Part shown: positions 43,655 through 53,861 of the stretch, in pieces
Layout of the letters: each line of letters opens with the position of its first letter
Numbering within the stretch: the first letter of the stretch is position 1
Notes under the pieces: model-generated
What the model saw: only the letters and a program-made list of their open reading frames with translations
What the model was told of the DNA's origin: nothing
Databases searched by the model: none
Made by a program: the position numbers and the translations under genes
Assembly (NCBI RefSeq): GCF_029323795.1
Contig: NZ_CP119758.1
Coordinates: 4,216,001-4,280,000, forward strand
Direction: 5' to 3'
Length of the DNA: 64,000 nt
Origin: Zobellia alginiliquefaciens
Lineage (GTDB): Bacteria > Bacteroidota > Bacteroidia > Flavobacteriales > Flavobacteriaceae

Positions 43655-44449
43655 TTAAGTTTTATTCTTTTCAGCCTGCTTAATAAAAACCGTATCAATC
43701 AAAAAGGTGGTGACTTCTTTATCTGAAATTAAGGGAAGGCGTTTTTTCTTTTTGATAGGTTTTTCTACAGTCTCCGGAATTGTTTCACTTTTACTTTCAT
43801 CTATCGAACTAGAATCTTCAGTTTCAAAATAGAACTGCTCATTGAAAATTGTCAGGATTCTTCTTGAAGCTTCAAACTGCAATATTTCATAAAGAATAGA
43901 ACTTTTAGCAATCAGCGAGTCATTAAAATAACTAGCATCCCCAATAAGAAAGTGGTTGAGGTGTATTGGATTTTGAGTAGCCAAATTTTCCTGTAAAACC
44001 TCTTGCCGCATATTAAAAAGCTCTGTTTTTTTGGCTCTACTCACGATGGGGTACCCGTCACTAGACCTTTTGATACGGATAACATCAAACTTATCCTTAA
44101 TGGTGAGTTGTGCAATTTCTCTGTAATAGCTGTGTGCAATATTTTTGGTCTCTTTCTCATCATGTCCTTGTATATCTTCTTCGTACATATAAAAGAATCC
44201 AATCAGTGAATTTTCTAAAACATTCTCATATACCTTTAAAAGGTAATCGTAAAACTCTTTGGTCAATGCGGTATTAGGTACATATACCGGGTCACTATTT
44301 TCTTGAGAAATAGAATTAGGACTACCATCTAGGGTTAACGATACCCGATTTACTTGTTCAAAAACACCATTGGAAAGCTGTATTTCTTTCAGTTCGTTTA
44401 TGCTCACCGAGTTTAAATCTAAACCTTTGAGTAGTCCGTAATAGCTCAT
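43655..44449 (-). CDS. Unknown protein encoded with the integrase
   Basis: 264 residues, no signal peptide or TM. Mixed helix/strand N-terminal part ('YYGLLKGLDLNSVSINELKEI'-like; 'FYDYLLKVYENVLENSLIG') and a low-complexity acidic then basic C-terminus ('SSSIDESKSETIPE', 'KPIKKKKRLP'). It starts 5 bp after the integrase stop, so it is co-transcribed. I do not recognise it. Genes in this place often code excision or stability factors of the same element, but no such family could be identified. Confidence 0.7.
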   Translation of the reverse strand: MSYYGLLKGLDLNSVSINELKEIQLSNGVFEQVNRVSLTLDGSPNSISQENSDPVYVPNTALTKEFYDYLLKVYENVLENSLIGFFYMYEEDIQGHDEKETKNIAHSYYREIAQLTIKDKFDVIRIKRSSDGYPIVSRAKKTELFNMRQEVLQENLATQNPIHLNHFLIGDASYFNDSLIAKSSILYEILQFEASRRILTIFNEQFYFETEDSSSIDESKSETIPETVEKPIKKKKRLPLISDKEVTTFLIDTVFIKQAEKNKT

Positions 44450-44454
44450 GAAAT

Positions 44455-45894
44455 CTAATTGTTTTCTGTTTGATGTAAAAGATTAGAATAGTCTTCGGGT
44501 AAAGCCGCATCTATATCTCGCAAATATCTATCTAAAGCCTCGCGTGTGGAATGGCCTGTTATGAGCATTAACCGACTTTTGACTACTTCTGGGGTGCTGG
44601 TTTTCACCATCTCCCTGTAGAGCCTTGTAATGAACGTATGTCTAAAACTATATAAGCCATAATCTTTGCCTAGTTTAAAATGGTCCTTAACCTTTTTGAA
44701 CCGTTTGGTAAAGTAATTCCGCTTTTCGGTCTCGGAGACGGTCCATTCTCCACCAATTCCATTGGGAGTAAATAAATAGAGTTCCTTTTTCATTTGTGAA
44801 ATGTCAGGTATTCTATCCAGCATTATTTTAGGGATAATCTTCACCTTCACCGGTTTGTTCTTTGCTTTTACATATAATTTTTGATCATGTATATCTATAT
44901 CCCCGATCTTCAATCTGCATACTTCAATAGGGCGAAGAAAGTTGTAGGAGACGAACTGAACGAACAAACGTAGCAACGGGTCGTTCTCCTTCATGTGGTT
45001 GTCAATATCCCGTACCAATTGCGGTGTGTAGGTCTTGTTACGTGTTGGAACTGATTTTAGATTGTTGATTTTTAGAATAAAATTGTCTTCTATCAGTTCA
45101 TTGTCTTCTAAGGTGGTAAAGAAAGAACTTAATGCCGATCTAGCATTATTTCTGGTCCTCGGGCTAGTTCTTTGGAGGACGGCATTCAGATGTTTAATAA
45201 CTACTTTTTTCGTTACATTTTTAATGTCGGAAACATCAACCTCGTTTTCCCCCAGCCATCGTTGAAATTGAAGTATTCGGTTCTCATATTTGGAATAGGA
45301 GTTTACGTTAAGCGTACTCTTTTTTATTTTCAATCCAAGCGCAAAAGCCTCTGCTACGGACATCTGGGGTTCTGACTCCACTTCTTTGGTTTCCGGTTTG
45401 ACCTCTTCTTTCAATTCTATACGGTTATCGTCCAAAGCGGAAAATATGTCAATTTCTATAGGACCCGGAGGAGGAGTTGGCGTTTCTTTGATAACTTCTT
45501 TTGTTACGGGAACAGGAGGTAGAATTGGCTTTTTTGGTGGCTTTTGAGTGGTTTCTGAACTAAGGTCTGTACTTTCTTGTGTACCGTTCTTAATCCTGTT
45601 TTCCAATTCTATATTCCTTTCATATGGATTGAAGCCTTCAATTAAAAGAAAGTGTAGTTTGGTCCTAATAATTTTAAGAAAAGAAAGTCGGTCTCTTTTA
45701 TTCGTGTGAAAATTTGCACCTGCCTTAATGTTGGGTTGGCGTTTTAATAATCCGGTATCAGGATTTCGGAACGAAAAATAAACATACCAAGGTTTACTAA
45801 GAGCTTCTTTTTGTTCTGATTTAGAGAGCTTGGACCATTGGTCAATATCCACTCCGCCCGTGAAAATTTTGGGTTCGGTATAGGTCGGTTTCAT
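44455..45894 (-). CDS. Tyrosine recombinase/integrase
   Basis: The ORF opens at 45951, but a TACTTTTG -7 box (45928-45935) sits inside those first codons, so ATG at 45894 ('MKPTYTEPKIF', 479 aa) is the better start. The C-terminal catalytic domain has the tyrosine recombinase set: Arg in 'NFLRPIEVCRLKIGDI', 'YGLYSFRHTFITRL' (H-x-x-R region 'SFRHTFITRLY'), His in 'LMLITGHSTREALDRYL' and the nucleophile Tyr in that last string. A SAM-like core-binding domain precedes it (about 205-300). The first 100 residues form an arm-type domain, joined by a Pro-rich linker ('KPPKKPILPPVPV'). It faces a tRNA 3'-half 110 bp upstream, a probable attachment site, so it likely mobilised a genomic island. Confidence 0.92.
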   Translation of the reverse strand: MKPTYTEPKIFTGGVDIDQWSKLSKSEQKEALSKPWYVYFSFRNPDTGLLKRQPNIKAGANFHTNKRDRLSFLKIIRTKLHFLLIEGFNPYERNIELENRIKNGTQESTDLSSETTQKPPKKPILPPVPVTKEVIKETPTPPPGPIEIDIFSALDDNRIELKEEVKPETKEVESEPQMSVAEAFALGLKIKKSTLNVNSYSKYENRILQFQRWLGENEVDVSDIKNVTKKVVIKHLNAVLQRTSPRTRNNARSALSSFFTTLEDNELIEDNFILKINNLKSVPTRNKTYTPQLVRDIDNHMKENDPLLRLFVQFVSYNFLRPIEVCRLKIGDIDIHDQKLYVKAKNKPVKVKIIPKIMLDRIPDISQMKKELYLFTPNGIGGEWTVSETEKRNYFTKRFKKVKDHFKLGKDYGLYSFRHTFITRLYREMVKTSTPEVVKSRLMLITGHSTREALDRYLRDIDAALPEDYSNLLHQTENN

Positions 45895-45927
45895 TGTAAA
45901 AGTATGTACTGTTTCGTGTACGCTCTG

Positions 45928-45935
45928 CAAAAGTA
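45928..45935 (-). promoter_or_regulatory. -7 promoter box of the integrase
   Basis: TACTTTTG on the minus strand fits TAnnTTTG, 33 bases before the ATG at 45894. It supports that start over 45951. Confidence 0.45.
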
Positions 45936-46001
45936 CGGAAATAGAAGGCATAAAAAAACGGCTTGTGAGTACACAAACCGCTGTTTTTACTGGTTTTAAG
46001 C

Positions 46002-46047: not shown

Positions 46048-46434
46048 TTTGGAAAAATATCCAAATTTTAGGCTATTTTAATATAAATGCTGGTAAACTG
46101 TTTACCGAATTGTTTACTGTGTTAGTACTAATTTTAGTTAATGCGTAAGGTAAACAATAACAATATCCAAAGCAATTATTTGTTCAGATTTAGAACTTCG
46201 GGAGAACAGGTAGTACTGGTAAAAAGAATTCAATTATACCTCTCTTAAGTGAATAGAATTTGGAATAATTATTTAATGTTTCGTTCATATTTGTCATAAA
46301 GTAACTGTGTCCAAATAAGTAAAACTGCATAACCTAAAACTGTTACAGGTTTATTGTATTTCGTTAAATGTATTGTAGCTAAAGGTTTAACTTTATTAAA
46401 TACAGAAAGTACATCTTTCACTTATAGAATTATT

Positions 46435-46872
46435 ATGATTGATTATAGTATGATTAGCCCATTAGCTTATGCCGACGATGATGAAGACGATAGAATGTTC
46501 TTTGAGGAGGCGATGCAAGAAATATTTCCCAATATTAAAATGAATTTATTTCCTAATGGGAAATCACTGTTGACCTTTATCGTGTCTAATTTATCGGCTG
46601 GAATTCTTCCTAGATTAATTTTTTTAGATTTGAACATGCCCGTAATGAACGGAATCGAGTGTTTGTCCGAATTAAAAAAAAATAAAATATTGACTGAAAT
46701 TCCTGTTATTATATATTCAACCTCTTCATCTGAGGGGGATAAGCGTAAACTTATGGAAATGGGAGCGATATGTTTTTTGACTAAAGAAACCTCCCTAAGT
46801 CGGATGCAGTCACAGTTAAAGCAAATCGTTGAGGATTTGTGCCAAAAAGAACTGTTACCAAAAACAACCTAA
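46435..46872 (+). CDS. Single-domain response regulator
   Basis: 145 residues from ATG 46435; the 27 codons of open frame before it are low in coding character. Receiver-domain residues: acidic pocket 'ADDDEDDRMF', phosphoacceptor Asp in 'LIFLDLNMPVMNG', Thr/Ser in 'IIYSTSSSEGD' and Lys in 'CFLTKETS'. No output domain, so it acts by protein contact in a phosphorelay or as a Rcp1-like partner of a sensor kinase. Its closest kin in Bacteroidetes often pair with light or redox histidine kinases. It converges on the AraC-BLUF regulator gene with 3 bp between them. The gene-free stretch 46048-46434 shows no other feature. Confidence 0.88.
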   Translation: MIDYSMISPLAYADDDEDDRMFFEEAMQEIFPNIKMNLFPNGKSLLTFIVSNLSAGILPRLIFLDLNMPVMNGIECLSELKKNKILTEIPVIIYSTSSSEGDKRKLMEMGAICFLTKETSLSRMQSQLKQIVEDLCQKELLPKTT

Positions 46873-46875
46873 AAG

Positions 46876-48336
46876 TTATGCGGCGGAGTTGTTGGAATTA
46901 ACTTTAATAATAGTTCTCACTTTTCTCCAAAGGTTCTCAGAATCCATAGCGCTTTTATCTAATTTTCCAAGAAGATTACTTAATTCAAGATTTTTAGTAT
47001 TTCCTTGAATATCTACTTTTAACACTCCTTCGTCACTAATAGTTGCTAAAGCCCAGTTATTAAACTCACGTTTAATTTTAAAACCTTGCCACATGATTTG
47101 AATATCTTTATGCCTTCTGTCATTGCAAATATTCTTGAACAAGGCCAGGACTTCTTTTTTAGGACCTTCAATAATTTGAAAGAAGATATTACGGTGAAAA
47201 ATAATACTACCCGTTATTTGAAATTGAGGGTTGAAAGATCTCGCAATATTAATGATATTATCAACATCCTTACCATCAATGGAATCTACGGCCAATGAGC
47301 GATAACTTATATCATATAACAGATTGGCCTCTTCATAACTTTTTCTAAAGACACTAGGAGAGTTGCCAAAGGTATCCGAGAAAATCTTAGAAAAATAGCT
47401 TTTACTCTGGTATCCTACGGCAAAGCAAATCTCTGAGATATTCATTTCTGTAGAATGCATTAATTCTTTACTGTGCTCTAAGCGAAGCCTAGTGAGATAT
47501 TCATTTGCCGAATAGCCATATAAAAAACGAATGCCCGATTGCAGTTTTTTTGGTGAAATCCTTAAGTGTAGACTAATCTCATCAATAGAGACTTTTTCCG
47601 AAATGTTCTCTAAAACATAATCACCAATATAAGTAATTCTTGAAAGTTCGGATTTGGTTAAAGCTGGCTTGAAATTATCGCTATTACTATCGTGTTCATG
47701 AGCCTCTATCTGTGATCCCAACATTCTTAGAATAGCTCCTTCGGTAATCAATCTGCCAATTATATCCGTTCTTTCATTCTCTACTATAATATCTGCATAA
47801 GTTCCAATTCTAGCATCTATATCGCCAAAATATCGGAAGGGTTCATTTTCCTTGTCAAGCTTAAAACTTTCAGCTAAATCTTGAACCAATTTGAGTTTGC
47901 TGGAGATTTTACTTTTCTTAAGTAGTTTTGGGTTGATTATAATATAGCAGCATTTATAGTCTATGTTGCCGGGGATTATAAACTCTGAACTACTATTTGG
48001 TTTGCTGATTATGACAAAATTCTGCCCTTGGCGGATTTTTTTATAATCTTCATCTTTTGGAAACTTCTGTAGTTGATAACCTGATATATTATAACCGAAG
48101 TAATAAGGTTTGTCATCGGTGAAATTCATATTAATCACCAAATCTTTCGTAAAGTTTATATTATATATCCAAGAAGTGAGACCTGGTAATATCTCATATA
48201 AACTAATGTACCCAATGCCGTTTTCATTTTCAATGGACATTTTGGCGGCACCTAAGTTCTCAAGTAAATCACCGTCAAAATGAACCGAAAATTGACGTAA
48301 CATATCAAGAGGACTTTCTTCTCTTAACCTTAACAT
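46876..48336 (-). CDS. AraC-type regulator fused to a BLUF blue-light sensor
   Basis: 486 residues from ATG 48336; the ORF opens ten codons earlier, but a TATTTTTG -7 box overlaps those codons. Residues 1-220 are a beta-rich domain of AraC-sensor type. The double helix-turn-helix is about 235-332 ('VSIDEISLHLRISPKKL', 'ISEICFAVGYQSKSYFSKIF'). The C-terminal BLUF domain (about 339-430) has the flavin-contact residues Y345 ('SYRSLA'), N369 ('ARSFNPQFQITG'), Q387 ('FFQIIEG') and W428 ('FNNWALATI'), and 'ICNDRRHKDI'. It should bind FAD and switch on blue light. Such a sensor C-terminal to a DNA-binding domain is unusual. Tandem 13-bp repeats just upstream are candidate self-binding sites. Neighbours are DNA-repair genes. 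Confidence 0.88.
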   Translation of the reverse strand: MLRLREESPLDMLRQFSVHFDGDLLENLGAAKMSIENENGIGYISLYEILPGLTSWIYNINFTKDLVINMNFTDDKPYYFGYNISGYQLQKFPKDEDYKKIRQGQNFVIISKPNSSSEFIIPGNIDYKCCYIIINPKLLKKSKISSKLKLVQDLAESFKLDKENEPFRYFGDIDARIGTYADIIVENERTDIIGRLITEGAILRMLGSQIEAHEHDSNSDNFKPALTKSELSRITYIGDYVLENISEKVSIDEISLHLRISPKKLQSGIRFLYGYSANEYLTRLRLEHSKELMHSTEMNISEICFAVGYQSKSYFSKIFSDTFGNSPSVFRKSYEEANLLYDISYRSLAVDSIDGKDVDNIINIARSFNPQFQITGSIIFHRNIFFQIIEGPKKEVLALFKNICNDRRHKDIQIMWQGFKIKREFNNWALATISDEGVLKVDIQGNTKNLELSNLLGKLDKSAMDSENLWRKVRTIIKVNSNNSAA

Positions 48337-48351
48337 TCTTAGTGTTTTTTT

Positions 48352-48359
48352 CAAAAATA
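48352..48359 (-). promoter_or_regulatory. -7 promoter box of the AraC-BLUF gene
   Basis: TATTTTTG on the minus strand, 16 bases before the ATG at 48336. It lies within the codons of the longer ORF and favours the shorter start. Confidence 0.4.
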
Positions 48360-48365
48360 AAAACA

Positions 48366-48410
48366 TCCGAATAAAATGTTTAACGTTATTCGGAAAATTT
48401 AACGTTATTC
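48366..48410 (-). promoter_or_regulatory. Tandem operator-like repeats upstream of the AraC-BLUF gene
   Basis: TTTAACGTTATTC (plus strand) occurs at 48379-48391 and 48398-48410, exactly 19 bp apart. The first copy also forms the right arm of an inverted repeat TCCGAATAA (48366-48374) / TTATTCGGA (48386-48394). Tandem sites about two helical turns apart just upstream of -7 are typical binding sites for AraC-type dimers, so autoregulation is likely. Confidence 0.5.
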
Positions 48411-48468: not shown

Positions 48469-49710
48469 TCATTGGGTGGTAAATCTTGGACTACGGTGGT
48501 CTTTTATAAGAGCCCATTTCTTACTTCGGTTACCCACCATAGCCATTTTAATTTTGTTCTTACCGTATTTATTATTCAGGTCATCCATAACGTTTGTAAT
48601 AGAGCTACTCTCGCTTTTATGGGGGGGGTCGAACAAATTTGTTTGTACCTCGCTTCGGTTGACCAGATGAGTAAGATTTACTCCAACTTTTTTATAGCGA
48701 TAGCCTGGCTTATAGATTTTTCTTAAACCCTTAAGGGCTTCTTTGGTAAGCTTAATGGTACTATCCGTTGGAGAATTTAAGTTAATTACAATTTTATTGG
48801 AGTATTGTTTATCTATCTCACTATGTTGATTGGTCTGCAAAGAGACTTCTAGCTGAGAAGCAACACTTTGCTGTTGTCGTAATAAATCGGCAACTTCGGA
48901 CACATAATAACTACAGGCTTCTTCAATAAGTGTAAAATCCGTTAATTTAAAACCAAAGGATTTAGCGGTACCTATTCCTTTTTTTGCATTCGGTTCCGTC
49001 ACCATTTCTAGGCATGGCACATTATTAAGTTCTCTCCATAAACGTTCGCCAATAACGGTCATTTCCTTTCGTACCCATGACACGGGCATATTGGCAAAGT
49101 CAAGTGCTGTAACAACATTGATTTTCTCTAAACGAATGGCGTGTTTTTTTCCTATTCCCCATATGTCTTTGACCTTAAGATTTCTTAGTAAATGTTTCCT
49201 CTTTTCTTCCGTATCAACTACATATACATTATTATTTGAAGCAATTTTTTTCGCATACTTATTGGCTAGTTTTGATAGTGATTTGGTTTTTGCTATTCCA
49301 ACCCCAACAGGTATTCCTGTGTTTTTATGAACGGTATCCTTTATTTTATGGGCGACGGAATCATATTCTCCATTTTTGAATGAACTTAGGTCTACAAAGC
49401 TCTCATCAATGCTATACTCTTCCACAATAGGAGAAAACAGTTCTAAAGTATCCATTACCCTTCTAGACATATCACTGTACAAGGTATAGTTAGACGAAAA
49501 GTACGTGACATTATTCTCATCAAGTAACTTTCGTATTTTAAATATGGGTTGAAACATAGGTATTTCAGCCAATGCCTTTGCTTCTTTGTTAGCGGCAATA
49601 ATACATCCATCGTTATTACTTAAAACAACAACAGGTTTGTTCATTAGGTCCGGTCTAAACACCTGCTCACAGGAAGCATAAAAACTATTACAGTCAACTA
49701 ATGCAATCAT
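48469..49710 (-). CDS. umuC: Y-family translesion DNA polymerase (UmuC)
   Basis: 413 residues. The first catalytic Asp is in '[18 protein letters not shown]'; '[10 protein letters not shown]' supplies the second Asp-Glu pair. The finger '[18 protein letters not shown]' and the helix-hairpin-helix '[18 protein letters not shown]' (about 155-175) are typical. The little-finger domain follows, and the end (about 385-413) shows the '[16 protein letters not shown]' tail of the family. It copies past lesions such as UV photoproducts. It overlaps umuD by 4 bp (ATGA), so the two are translationally coupled. The active site is intact. Confidence 0.95.
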
Positions 49711-50066
49711 CTAGATTTTATGATATAAGTTATAATACCCCAGATATTTAATTCTCTATCACCGGCTCCATCAAATTCAAGAATTGTAAATGTATCGTCA
49801 ACAGTGGCCAGAATGAGCTTGTTCATTTTCGGTGATAATGATTTATCAACAATTAGAACATCACTTTCATCTATATCAAACTCCTGAAAAGAATCACCTT
49901 CAACCCGGATAAAAAATGTAGAAGAGGAATTGGTAACCAATTCTTCGTTTAGGTCTATTCTAGGTTCTTGATAATGGGTTGCAGGACTTGAAAACCCAGT
50001 TTGGGTTGGTCTTTTGACCCTATGACCATTTGTTGATTTTTTTATCAAACTTGCCATAATATTCAT
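49707..50066 (-). CDS. umuD: UmuD/LexA-like S24 protein lacking the usual catalytic Lys
   Basis: 119 residues (139 in E. coli UmuD). The cleavage-site region is retained as '[10 protein letters not shown]', the counterpart of the Cys-Gly site with 'FPSPA'. The nucleophile Ser is S59 in 'VEGDSFQEF'. At the position of the catalytic Lys in 'FTVKKL' this protein reads 'FTILEF', i.e. L96. The segment that normally follows ('PMNSAY...' in E. coli) is shortened by some 20 residues. Self-cleavage by the Ser/Lys dyad should therefore be impaired, and activity may depend on another protease or none. Start M1 at 50066 or M4 at 50057. Coupled to umuC by a 4-bp overlap. Confidence 0.88.
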
Positions 50067-50370: not shown

Positions 50371-50477
50371 TTTCCAAATTTCAGGATATATTCCAAAATA
50401 TTTGCTTTATTTTTGAAAATGTTATCAACAATATATAATGAACTGACTATGGTCGGTGGGGTGTATTGATTTAGGTG

Positions 50478-50497
50478 TTTAACCTTATAAGGTTAAA
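50478..50497. promoter_or_regulatory. 20-bp perfect palindrome between the umuDC and Ku operons
   Basis: TTTAACCTTATAAGGTTAAA is its own reverse complement. Wider bases add GTGTTTA (50475-50481) against TAAACAC (about 50500-50507). It lies 108 bp from the 91-aa gene start and 170 bp from Ku, in the 296-bp divergent region. A dimeric regulator, perhaps a damage-response repressor, would suit it. The rest of the stretch holds no gene. Confidence 0.5.
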
Positions 50498-50666
50498 TAA
50501 TAAACACTTTGAGTCACTTAGTTATACAGACCTGCCCTAATTTATACCAGATAAAAAAGGATGAACTTGGGTAAATAAATGTGGTCAGTAAGAATTAATG
50601 CTATATGCCGAGGGAGACCAACAAAAGAGTTCAAGAAATATATTAAGTAACATAAAGTAAAATTCT

Positions 50667-51440
50667 ATGAGATCAATATGGAACGGCTCAATAAGCTTCG
50701 GTTTAGTATCTATTCCTATCAAGCTATTTTCAGGTTCTGAAGATAGAAAATTGGATTTGGACATGTTGGATAGCCATGACGGAGCTCGAATACGCTATAA
50801 AAGAGTAAATGAGGACACGGGGAAAGAAGTGGAATGGAAAGACATTGTCAAAGGTTATAAAAAGGATGATGAATATATCATATTGGAAAAGGAAGATTTT
50901 GAAAATGCCAATATGAAAAAAAGTAAGACTATCGATATTGAACAGTTTATAGAGGCCGATGAAGTCTCGGATGTTCTTTTTAAAAAACCATATTTCATTA
51001 AGCCTCAAAAGGGAGGAGAGAAATCGTATGCATTACTCAGAAATGCGTTAAAGAAGACAGAAAAGCTCGGAGTTGCAACATTCGTTATGCGTCAGAAAGA
51101 GCATCTATCTTTAATTGGGGTTTATGAAGATGCACTTGTCTTGCACGTAATTAGATTTGAAGACGAAATTAGAAGTACGGCCGAACTTGAGTTACCTAAA
51201 ACGAAAATCGCCAAAAAAGAAATGGATATGGCTATTTCTCTAATTGATCAGTATACCGAGGTATTTGATTTTGCGAAATTCAAGGACATTTATAATGACC
51301 AGCTTCTGAAAATAATAGAATCGAAATCTTCCGGAAAAGTTTCCAAACCAGAAAAATTTGAATCAAAACCGACACCGGCAAAAGATTTAATGGCGCAGTT
51401 AAAGGCTAGTTTAGAAAAACGTGATAAAAAGGCATCATAA
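50667..51440 (+). CDS. ku: Non-homologous end-joining protein Ku
   Basis: 257 residues. 'MRSIWNGSISFGLVSIPIKLFSG' (shown by 'SIWNGSISFGLVSIPIKL') is the bacterial Ku start. The Ku core beta-barrel with 'YKRVNEDTGKEVEWKDIVKGY' (in short 'RVNEDTGKEVEWKDIVKG') and 'FKKPYFIKPQKGGEKSYALL' follow, then 'LGVATFVMRQKEHLSLI'. The C-terminus is short and Lys-rich and recruits LigD. As a homodimer it binds DNA ends. ligD starts 3 bp after its stop. This is the first gene of a four-gene repair operon facing away from umuDC. Confidence 0.96.
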   Translation: MRSIWNGSISFGLVSIPIKLFSGSEDRKLDLDMLDSHDGARIRYKRVNEDTGKEVEWKDIVKGYKKDDEYIILEKEDFENANMKKSKTIDIEQFIEADEVSDVLFKKPYFIKPQKGGEKSYALLRNALKKTEKLGVATFVMRQKEHLSLIGVYEDALVLHVIRFEDEIRSTAELELPKTKIAKKEMDMAISLIDQYTEVFDFAKFKDIYNDQLLKIIESKSSGKVSKPEKFESKPTPAKDLMAQLKASLEKRDKKAS

Positions 51441-51443
51441 CGA

Positions 51444-53861
51444 GTGAATTTAAAGTCGTATCATAATAAAAGAGATTTTAAGAACACTCCCGAACCACAA
51501 GGGGGCCTTCAACCTGTATCTAATACACAACGGTTCGTTATTCAACGCCATGCCGCTAGTAGGTTGCATTATGATTTGCGTTTGGAAATAAATGGAACTC
51601 TTAAAAGTTGGGCTATTCCCAAAGGTCCTTCTATGAACCCTAGCGATAAAAGATTAGCTGTTAGAACGGAGGACCACCCTATTGAATACCTTAATTTTCA
51701 AGGCACTATTCCAAAAGGGAATTATGGTGCAGGTAAAATGATTATATGGGATACCGGTACTTTTAAAATAGATGATACCGAAACGGATAAAAGTCTTTCT
51801 GAACAACTAGCGATCGGCAATATAAAATTACTGTTTTACGGGAAAAAAATCCGTGGGCGTTTTGCTTTGGTTCGCACAACTTCAAAAACTGATACGGAGC
51901 AATGGTTACTACTGAAAAAGAAAGATGAGTTCGCTATTACAACTTTTTACGATGCCGAAACCCTAGTACCCATTTCGGAGAGTAAATCTAGCAAAAACAA
52001 TGATGAGATAAAGCCTGGCAGGATACTACAACCTATGCTGGCTTCTAGTACTAAAGAAATTTTTAATGACCCTAATTTCATTTATGAACTAAAGTGGGAT
52101 GGGTATAGGGTTATTTCCCAAATTGCTAATGGAAAAGTGCTATTGCAATCACGTAACGGTATTAATTACAACACAAAGTTCGAAAAATTATATGAGGAGT
52201 TAGGAGCCATAGAACATGAAGTTATTTTAGATGGAGAGGTTGTTTTGGTTGATGCTAATGGCGTTTCACATTTTGGGGAATTACAAAATTACCCTAACGC
52301 CAAAGGCGAACTTCGCTACTACGTTTTTGACATGCTGTATCTCAACGGCCACAGTATGCTCGATTTAAAATTGTTAGAGAGAAAAAGTCTCATTAAAGAG
52401 GTTATAGATGGATTGGTAATTACCCAATACTGCGACCATATAGAAGGTATGGGTGCCGCATTGTACAACAAAGCAATTGAGGCAGGTATGGAAGGCGTAA
52501 TGGCCAAGGAAAAGAATTCAAAGTATACGATTGGCTATCGGACGGAAAAGTGGTTAAAGGTTAAGGGAGTACAAAGTGTCGATGCCATTGTTTGTGGATA
52601 TAGCGAGTCCAATAATAGCCCCCAATTAATTGGTTCGCTCATACTGGGCCAGTATGAAAACAATGTACTGAAGTATATCGGAAATTGTGGGTCTGGTTTT
52701 TCTGACAAGAGCCGAAAAGAACTTCAAGAATCACTTAGAAATTTTGAGATAGAAAAAAGTGTGTTTGAAAAACAAATACCTTTAAAAGGGAGGAAAGCAC
52801 ATTGGTTAGAACCTATATTTGAATGTGAGGTAACTTTTTCGGAGCGTACAAAAAATGGTTTTCTAAGAAACCCCATTTTTAAGAGGTTTACGACTGCTTT
52901 GCCCGAAACTGTTTCGAAAGAGGTAACACCAGCCAAATATAAGGTAAGTGCTAAGAAAGAGGTGATTACCATTGATGGTTTAAAGGTTCCTATCAGTAAC
53001 TTGAACAAAGTCTATTGGCCGCAAAGCCACTTGGTAAAGTATGATTTAATTGATTATTATCTGAATATAGCTGATTTTATATTGCCGCATTTGGTAGATA
53101 GGCCACAAAGTTTGCATAGACATCCCAATGGTATTGAAGAGGAAAGCTTTTACCAAAAAGACAATGATAGTTTGCCCGATTGGTTCGAAACGGTTTCCAT
53201 TTATTCGAAATCCTCTGAACGTGAAATAAATTATTTAATGTGCCAGAATACGGCATCATTAATTTATATGGCTAATTTGGGTTGTATCGAAATTAATCCT
53301 TGGAGTTCAAAAGTGTTTAGCCTTGATTATCCCGATTACGGAATTATAGATTTAGACCCACCGAACGGTTTTGACTTTAAAAATGTGGTGCAAGTAGCAC
53401 AGGAGTTTCGTAAAATCCTGAAGGATATAAAGATTGAAAGCTTTTGCAAGGTTTCGGGTTCAAAAGGTATCCACATTTATCTTCCTATGGCACAGAAATA
53501 CACTTATGAAGAAGTAAGAAATTTTGTAAAACTGATATGCCATTTGGTAGAGGAGAGGTTGCCGAAACTAACTACGTTAGAGCGGACCATAAAAAAGAGA
53601 AACGGAAAAATTTACTTGGACTATCTACAAAACAGAAGGGGGCACACCATTGCTGCTATTCATTCGGTAAGGCCTGTTGAAAAAGCACCTATATCGGCAC
53701 CTATCTTTTGGGACGAGCTGAATGACAAACTTAGTTCACGTAAATTTTTGATGAAAGATTATCCAAAACGATTGGAAAAGCATGGAGACCTATTTAGCAA
53801 ATTGATTAATGCCGACTTTGACATGCAAGCTACATTGTCGAATATTAATGATTTTGATTAA
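51444..53861 (+). CDS. ligD: DNA ligase D (phosphoesterase-ligase-polymerase)
   Basis: 805 residues from GTG 51444. Order is PE-LIG-POL. The 3'-phosphoesterase covers about 28-165, with H36 and H42 in 'RHAASRLHYDLRLE'. The ATP-dependent ligase has the adenylated K217 in 'ELKWDGYR' and 'MEGVMAKEKNSKYTIG' as motif IV. The archaeo-eukaryotic primase-like polymerase runs from about 505, with 'NLNKVYWPQ', 'GIIDLDPPNGF' (catalytic Asp pair) and 'KVSGSKGIHIYLPM'. It trims, fills and seals broken ends held by Ku. All three active sites look whole. It lies 3 bp after ku and 41 bp before the helicase. Confidence 0.96.
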   Translation: MNLKSYHNKRDFKNTPEPQGGLQPVSNTQRFVIQRHAASRLHYDLRLEINGTLKSWAIPKGPSMNPSDKRLAVRTEDHPIEYLNFQGTIPKGNYGAGKMIIWDTGTFKIDDTETDKSLSEQLAIGNIKLLFYGKKIRGRFALVRTTSKTDTEQWLLLKKKDEFAITTFYDAETLVPISESKSSKNNDEIKPGRILQPMLASSTKEIFNDPNFIYELKWDGYRVISQIANGKVLLQSRNGINYNTKFEKLYEELGAIEHEVILDGEVVLVDANGVSHFGELQNYPNAKGELRYYVFDMLYLNGHSMLDLKLLERKSLIKEVIDGLVITQYCDHIEGMGAALYNKAIEAGMEGVMAKEKNSKYTIGYRTEKWLKVKGVQSVDAIVCGYSESNNSPQLIGSLILGQYENNVLKYIGNCGSGFSDKSRKELQESLRNFEIEKSVFEKQIPLKGRKAHWLEPIFECEVTFSERTKNGFLRNPIFKRFTTALPETVSKEVTPAKYKVSAKKEVITIDGLKVPISNLNKVYWPQSHLVKYDLIDYYLNIADFILPHLVDRPQSLHRHPNGIEEESFYQKDNDSLPDWFETVSIYSKSSEREINYLMCQNTASLIYMANLGCIEINPWSSKVFSLDYPDYGIIDLDPPNGFDFKNVVQVAQEFRKILKDIKIESFCKVSGSKGIHIYLPMAQKYTYEEVRNFVKLICHLVEERLPKLTTLERTIKKRNGKIYLDYLQNRRGHTIAAIHSVRPVEKAPISAPIFWDELNDKLSSRKFLMKDYPKRLEKHGDLFSKLINADFDMQATLSNINDFD

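Follow-up and report, generated by a model that had tools for sequence, protein, structure and literature searches.

BLUF proteins are mostly short, or are fused to EAL or cyclase domains, and their outputs are indirect. AppA, PixD/Slr1694, BlrB, BlsA, and OaPAC are short or otherwise fused, and they signal via a partner protein or through a cyclase or phosphodiesterase. In R. sphaeroides, the BLUF protein AppA feeds a transcription regulator, PpsR, which is a separate protein. In the excerpts of the E. coli report (PMC3509220), BluF-BluR likewise supplies BLUF input to a transcription regulator by means of two separate proteins. Excerpts of a 2014 survey (PMC4844311) class 64% of BLUF proteins as short and 34% as carrying EAL, and there HTH domains are mentioned only with LOV proteins. 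A blue-light flavin sensor and a DNA-binding domain share one chain in EL222 and other LOV-HTH regulators (PMC4844311) and in BLADE, which the excerpted paper describes as an engineered fusion of the AraC HTH to the LOV protein Vivid (PMC9614035).

The window considered here, a 64,000-nucleotide stretch of the Zobellia alginiliquefaciens genome, encodes a protein that combines features of these systems in one ORF. It is like the BLUF photoreceptors in sequence, fold, and the photocycle residues Tyr/Asn/Gln/Trp of its BLUF domain; however, an AraC HTH precedes that domain. It is like the AraC/XylS regulators (AraC, CuxR, ToxT, RhaR) in its cupin/dimerisation domain, its double HTH, and the tandem direct repeats about 21 bp apart that form the predicted sites of the fusions, but it has a BLUF domain behind the HTH. 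In contrast to EL222, other LOV-HTH regulators, and BLADE, the photosensor is a BLUF rather than a LOV domain, and BLADE is in addition engineered and without the AraC cupin domain. Unlike AppA-PpsR and BluF-BluR, the sensor and the regulator form a single chain. No description of a natural AraC-BLUF protein was found in the titles and abstract openings of the open-access literature, and the excerpts of four papers that name BLUF proteins (PMC9020721, PMC2890560, PMC3164672, PMC4603819) name none that is an AraC-BLUF fusion; a mention in other literature or in domain databases is possible.

The fusion gene encodes 486 amino acids and lies within a minus-strand ORF at 46876-48366 (Table 1). The start at 48336 had been chosen in a first-pass annotation made from the letters of the window; it is preferred here because the ORFs of 18 named full-length relatives begin within six residues of that register and because a block just upstream of it is conserved in three Zobellia species. 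The same annotation placed AraC and BLUF parts in one chain, and Pfam agrees: BLUF (PF04940; 82.8 bits, cut-off 25), HTH_18 (69.4 bits, cut-off 33.6), and HTH_AraC (42.8 bits, cut-off 26.6) all match above cut-off. The Pfam matches of the fusion up to an E of 1 include no PAS/LOV family, and no single chain among the PDB matches listed covers both the AraC and BLUF parts. In the full-length model (pLDDT 84.6, pTM 0.85), the last HTH helix spans residues 327-335 and the first BLUF strand residues 340-349; the HTH part aligns with 3oio (Z 15.9, 112 residues, rmsd 2.5) and the BLUF part with BlrB (Z 17.0, 134 residues, rmsd 2.9). The domain matches and models together indicate a complete AraC-type regulator with a BLUF domain appended at its end; the two are joined by about four residues.

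Table 1. Features of the AraC-BLUF locus, in window coordinates.
Feature	Position	Strand	Basis
AraC-BLUF fusion gene	46876..48336	-	ORF list, Pfam, relatives
AraC-type cupin/dimerisation domain, residues 1-221	47674..48336	-	AlphaFold model; fold match to CuxR, BgaR, AraC
AraC double helix-turn-helix, residues 228-335	47332..47655	-	Pfam HTH_18/HTH_AraC, model
Junction, last HTH helix to first BLUF strand, residues 336-339	47320..47331	-	Model
BLUF domain, residues 340-432	47041..47319	-	Pfam, AppA alignment, model
C-terminal tail, residues 433-486	46879..47040	-	Low-confidence stretch, then helices (W470, R474)
Candidate -7 promoter element, TATTTTTG	48352..48359	-	Exact in window and locus L043; L044 differs by one base
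Predicted autoregulatory operator: two AATAACGTTAAA half-sites (48379-48390, 48398-48409), 19 bp apart	48379..48409	-	Three Zobellia
Gene of a single-domain response regulator, tail to tail with the fusion	46435..46872	+	Pfam Response_reg, 55.7 bits
Predicted operator ahead of the response-regulator gene: direct repeat at 21 bp	46341..46368	+	Conserved in three Zobellia

The N-terminal part has neither a Pfam family of its own nor a sequence match in the PDB. Described in the first-pass annotation as a beta-rich domain, it is modelled (pLDDT 90.9) as an AraC-type cupin/dimerisation domain. Among the families listed by VIA-align, the model matches CuxR (Z 10.4, 159 residues, rmsd 3.8), AraC (Z 9.0, 149 residues, rmsd 3.7), and the AraC-family domains of BgaR (Z 9.7), RhaR (8.4), and ToxT (8.0). 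Other cupins score alike, such as the pirin YhhW (Z 10.7), and Foldseek ranks the sigma-1 receptor and other cupins near the AraC-type domains. The AraC-type assignment is preferred on account of the alignments over 149-159 residues and the position of the domain ahead of an AraC HTH.

The BLUF domain of the window protein keeps the photocycle Tyr, Asn, Gln, and Trp, which the first-pass annotation had listed: Y345, N369, Q387, and W428 align by phmmer with Y21, N45, Q63, and W104 of AppA. The strand-5 position that is usually Met is occupied by L430. Across 24 distinct fusions (represented by 48 matches in the fetched loci), Tyr and Gln are present in all, Asn in 23, and Trp in 20; the strand-5 Met position holds Met in 14 and Leu in the other ten. 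The strand-5 Trp and Met vary even among members of the BLUF family. The distance from the HTH proline (P327) to the BLUF tyrosine (Y345) is invariant in all 24, and the recurrence of the architecture in this many distinct genes with a junction of equal length places it beyond chance. As judged from the coding sequences, the BLUF part is under purifying selection (dN 0.14-0.17 among the three Zobellia proteins; synonymous change close to or beyond saturation, at a proportion of 0.73-0.79). One genome, G154, carries two tandem AraC-BLUF genes (locus L039, 7902-11000), the first of which keeps the BLUF Asn and Trp and the second of which lacks both; the degenerate second copy might be a light-blind partner.

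The rarity of the architecture, also claimed at first pass, holds in genome samples of increasing breadth. Within the family, full-length fusions occur in at least seven of 299 genomes (a sample that includes the window's own genome, with up to five candidates scored per genome): its own, G154 and G172 with two each, G189, G190, G193, and G256. Within the order, a BLUF domain of any kind occurs in 34 of 395 genomes, and three of the 46 BLUF matches listed lie in a long frame (489-510 aa, in two genomes), whereas the other matches listed lie in frames of at most 173 aa. The phylum sample contains the fusion in three of 395 genomes (its own, G154, and G720, the last from another family), and the class sample in the same three of 395, with up to four candidates scored per genome. 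In named genomes scanned with one peptide pattern, at least 18 loci (L043-L060) carry a full-length fusion. Zobellia amurskyensis (76%) and Z. russellii (74%) are represented, as are Maribacter, Euzebyella, Pareuzebyella, Aquimarina, and Aurantibacter; by name, nearly all of the loci belong to the Flavobacteriaceae. No plasmid-borne relatives were found in 72,556 records at E 1e-15.

Two trees bear on the origin of the family. In a tree of the N-terminal domain and HTH (69 rows, omitting six redundant unfused copies and unfused rows of at most 140 bits or 330 aa), a single clade (100/99) unites the 24 fusions with two unfused genes; the fusion label requires three changes, of which the starred branches force two. 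The 45 unfused paralogues of this tree end after the HTH, at the point where BLUF begins in the fusions. In a BLUF tree, which omits the short BLUF of L059, L073 (400 aa), and duplicate fetches, the BLUF domains of the fusions form one group (97/89; 98% of 200 bootstrap trees) that adjoins the short BLUF proteins of flavobacteria (95/89 for both together). A single origin is the best fit to both trees, and one fusion event with a later loss in genome G188 is the simplest reading. AraC-BLUF proteins form a rare natural family, conserved and probably of one origin.

The G188 gene (L010, 1504-2517) falls within the fusion clade and has no BLUF domain, and tblastn finds no BLUF remnant in the 1.5 kb behind it; it likely represents a loss of the sensor. 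A two-gene form is found only in G045 (L121, 6310-7781), where an unfused AraC gene from this broader family and, 14 bp behind it, a short BLUF gene stand as separate genes. An origin of this pair by fission of a fusion is conceivable but not supported, as its BLUF groups with the short flavobacterial BLUF proteins (fork 80/87) and its AraC row sits on a very long branch; the placement of the pair is unsure.

Z. amurskyensis and Z. russellii have the tandem AATAACGTTAAA of the predicted autoregulatory operator at nearly equal distance from the start, although the gene further upstream differs in each species. In its own genome the tandem operator has one match at zero mismatches, and none is expected by chance in the window. 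Two further places at three mismatches equal the control of two and are rejected. The predicted operator lies inside the region 48366-48410 that the first-pass annotation had singled out for EMSA. The candidate -7 element may be compared with the Bacteroidetes consensus TAnnTTTG; a scan for sigma-70 promoters and terminators gave about the level of shuffled sequence.

The half-sites of AraC itself are spaced 21 bp apart, and the same spacing stands out across the family. For 18 lineages (23 loci before reduction, with the second G154 copy left out), 21-bp direct repeats in the 120 bp before the fusions have a summed score of 152, versus 125.2 (sd 5.1) in shuffled sequence; the z value at 21 bp is 5.2, and that of the next best spacing 2.2. 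A score of 152 is reached by none of 20000 sets resampled from 164 neighbouring upstream regions, and an equal excess at any spacing by none of 5000 resampled control sets. The core GTYA-N17-GTYA is present in nine of the 18 lineages, against five of the 164 controls (drawn from 27 loci, some of them near-copies) and two of 50 upstream regions of unfused genes (which include duplicate fetches), and is found in none of the 18 in reverse orientation. The corresponding Fisher values (p 1.5e-7 versus controls, 4e-5 versus unfused) are descriptive, because the spacing signal had already been seen when the core was chosen. Of the five control pairs, two belong to the response-regulator gene that adjoins the Z. 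amurskyensis and Z. russellii fusions. The longer TTGTYA-N15-TTGTYA occurs in five of 18 lineages and in none of the 164 controls.

The core pair is absent from the other nine lineages, and the operator of the window itself is spaced 19 rather than 21 bp; the Maribacter fusions have an upstream block in common and no GTYA pair. A mild excess at 21 bp is also seen for the unfused paralogues (mean 7.70 versus 7.05 in controls), so part of the 21-bp signal may belong to the AraC family and not to the fusion. Our overall confidence is slightly lowered on two counts: the core repeat is missing from half of the lineages, and some of the spacing signal is found in the paralogues too.

A second predicted operator, overlooked in the first-pass annotation, precedes the response-regulator gene and is the clearest conserved block of its intergenic region in an alignment of the three Zobellia species. 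It has one match at zero mismatches in each of the three genomes; further places at three mismatches number 1, 2, and 0, versus 0, 1, and 1 in controls. Such a gene adjoins the fusion in four loci (the window, L043, L044, and L049) and not in most; the predicted operator is absent before the L049 homologue. A wider regulon predicted from single half-sites was rejected as chance, with 10, 10, and 13 matches in the three genomes versus 11, 9, and 7 for the reversed control; with single half-sites at control level, only local targets are suggested. The best-supported candidate targets are the fusion gene itself and the adjacent response-regulator gene. Close to the fusion, at 43655-45951, the window also contains a tyrosine-recombinase-like gene (44455-45951) and a 264-aa ORF of no assigned family.

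The best reading of the locus, and one we consider fairly probable, is a dual-input one-component regulator that responds to a ligand and to light and acts on its own gene and on the response-regulator gene. The protein would be a dimer of the AraC type, in which a cupin sensor/dimerisation domain and a double HTH are followed by a BLUF photosensor at the C-terminus; the junction that ties this photosensor to the last HTH helix is very short and does not vary in length. The BLUF domain would bind flavin and undergo a photocycle in which blue light rearranges the hydrogen bonds around the flavin (Tyr, Gln, Trp). The rearrangement could be transmitted via the junction or the C-terminal helices and so alter DNA binding by the HTH pair or contact with RNA polymerase. 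The regulator is expected to bind direct repeats in tandem, spaced at 21 bp in many lineages and at 19 bp in its own Zobellia promoter. Its predicted sites lie ahead of the fusion gene and, for Zobellia, also ahead of the adjacent response-regulator gene, which the protein may control positively or negatively. Light, together with a putative cupin ligand, would thereby enter a two-component pathway. Direct light control of DNA binding in one chain, as proposed in the first-pass annotation, is the natural reading. More tentative, and in our estimate somewhat short of an even chance, is the statement as a whole for a natural family that reads both ligand and blue light, binds tandem repeats of 19-21 bp, and controls its own gene and a response regulator.

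Three rival explanations are less probable. Light might act chiefly by way of a protein partner, either a kinase or the neighbouring response regulator, and the HTH would then serve as an anchor. The BLUF protein PixD acts with a partner, PixE, and the response regulator beside the fusion in four loci, together with PAS histidine kinases near several members (L043, L053), would suit such signalling. The rigid, constant fusion to an intact HTH and the conserved operator-like repeats argue against it, and the response regulator is missing beside most members; we rate signalling through a partner as the least probable of the three. It is also unlikely, though less so, that the BLUF domain is no longer a light switch and serves as a redox or temperature sensor or as a structural add-on. 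AppA and BlsA also sense redox or temperature, and Leu replaces Met in the window protein, Trp is lost in four of 24 fusions, BLUF is lost in G188, and a catalase and an MsrA-like fragment (a short ORF in L056) lie near some members. Such a change of function fits poorly with the retention of Tyr and Gln in every fusion and of Asn in all but one, with purifying selection, and with the company of light-related genes in other loci: a bacteriophytochrome and heme oxygenase in L045 and short BLUF genes near the fusion in L053 and L059.

The remaining explanation, put forward in the first-pass annotation, is light-anticipated DNA repair, in which the regulator controls umuDC and perhaps Ku/LigD or, in a looser form, whichever photodamage genes adjoin it in each lineage. 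The neighbours it named are present: umuC (48469-49710, 133 bp upstream of the fusion on the same strand), a umuD-like gene (49707-50066), and Ku (50667-51440) have Pfam matches, and the ORF at 51444-53861 is LigD-like as read from the ORF list. Two genomes of the same genus with only short BLUF proteins (G001, G236) are also without a close umuC (best 25-26% identity), and one GTYA-N17-GTYA pair lies 150-175 bp before Ku (about 50492-50516, plus strand), outside the tested zone. Control of these genes is nevertheless not supported by comparison with two other Zobellia species. Neither umuDC nor Ku/LigD appears in the flanking sequence fetched around the Z. amurskyensis and Z. russellii fusions, and the umuC orthologues of the two species (82% and 81%) are on other contigs than the fusion. 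The umuDC promoters of all three share a different conserved block, GGAATATATCC-N5-TTTGGA, and AATARCGTTAA half-sites and 21-bp pairs were not found in those of Z. amurskyensis (L130) and Z. russellii (L131).

The looser form is kept alive by repair and photodamage genes near other members: SRAP directly downstream of the fusion in L045 (Pfam), with a homologue in L046; uvrA in the same position in L050 (Pfam), with homologues in L051 and L060; a photolyase about 5 kb from the member in L037; and a catalase in L053, with a homologue in L059. Most loci, however, have no repair gene beside the fusion, and the repair category was chosen once the neighbouring genes had been seen. Unrelated neighbours include a penicillin-binding protein (L047), an M50 peptidase (L048), and a pyrroline-5-carboxylate reductase-like gene (L057). 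The neighbours look like light and photodamage biology in part of the family, not like one repair pathway. A DNA-repair role of the regulator is weakly supported, and we judge light-anticipated repair in either form to be improbable.

If the preferred reading of a light-responsive one-component regulator is true, the fusion is the natural BLUF counterpart of the engineered light-controlled AraC, and the DNA-binding output lies in the BLUF protein's own chain. The family would constitute a natural one-gene blue-light AraC switch and offer a direct path from light to transcription in flavobacteria; its 24 variants (with or without Trp, with Met or Leu, and including a degenerate tandem copy) can be compared with one another. 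With BLUF on a short constant junction to a DNA-binding domain and with operators predicted, the signal from BLUF to effector becomes measurable.

Several further observations concern the neighbourhoods of the fusion and its relatives. The region 50371-50666, which the first-pass annotation had also proposed for EMSA, contains both the conserved umuDC block and the GTYA-N17-GTYA pair before Ku. The block itself (50373-50394) is a candidate umuDC operator. Between the divergent umuDC and Ku/LigD genes, a perfect 20-bp palindrome, TTTAACCTTATAAGGTTAAA, occupies 50478-50497; it was not found upstream of umuD in L130 or L131. The uvrA gene behind the Maribacter litopenaei fusion (L050, 8592-11437) is split over two frames, either by mutation or by sequencing error, and is one long frame in L051 and L060. 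In L045 (8632-14304), SRAP, an unfused AraC paralogue, response regulators, heme oxygenase, and bacteriophytochrome genes lie beside the fusion (Pfam), and homologues of this set flank the fusion in L046 (8698-14353). Elsewhere in the genome of the window (L123, 8138-18891; C1, about 2668137-2678890), one stretch brings together short BLUF, ferritin-like, and DUF892 genes with an unfused AraC paralogue and PAS histidine kinase, response-regulator, and SRAP genes.
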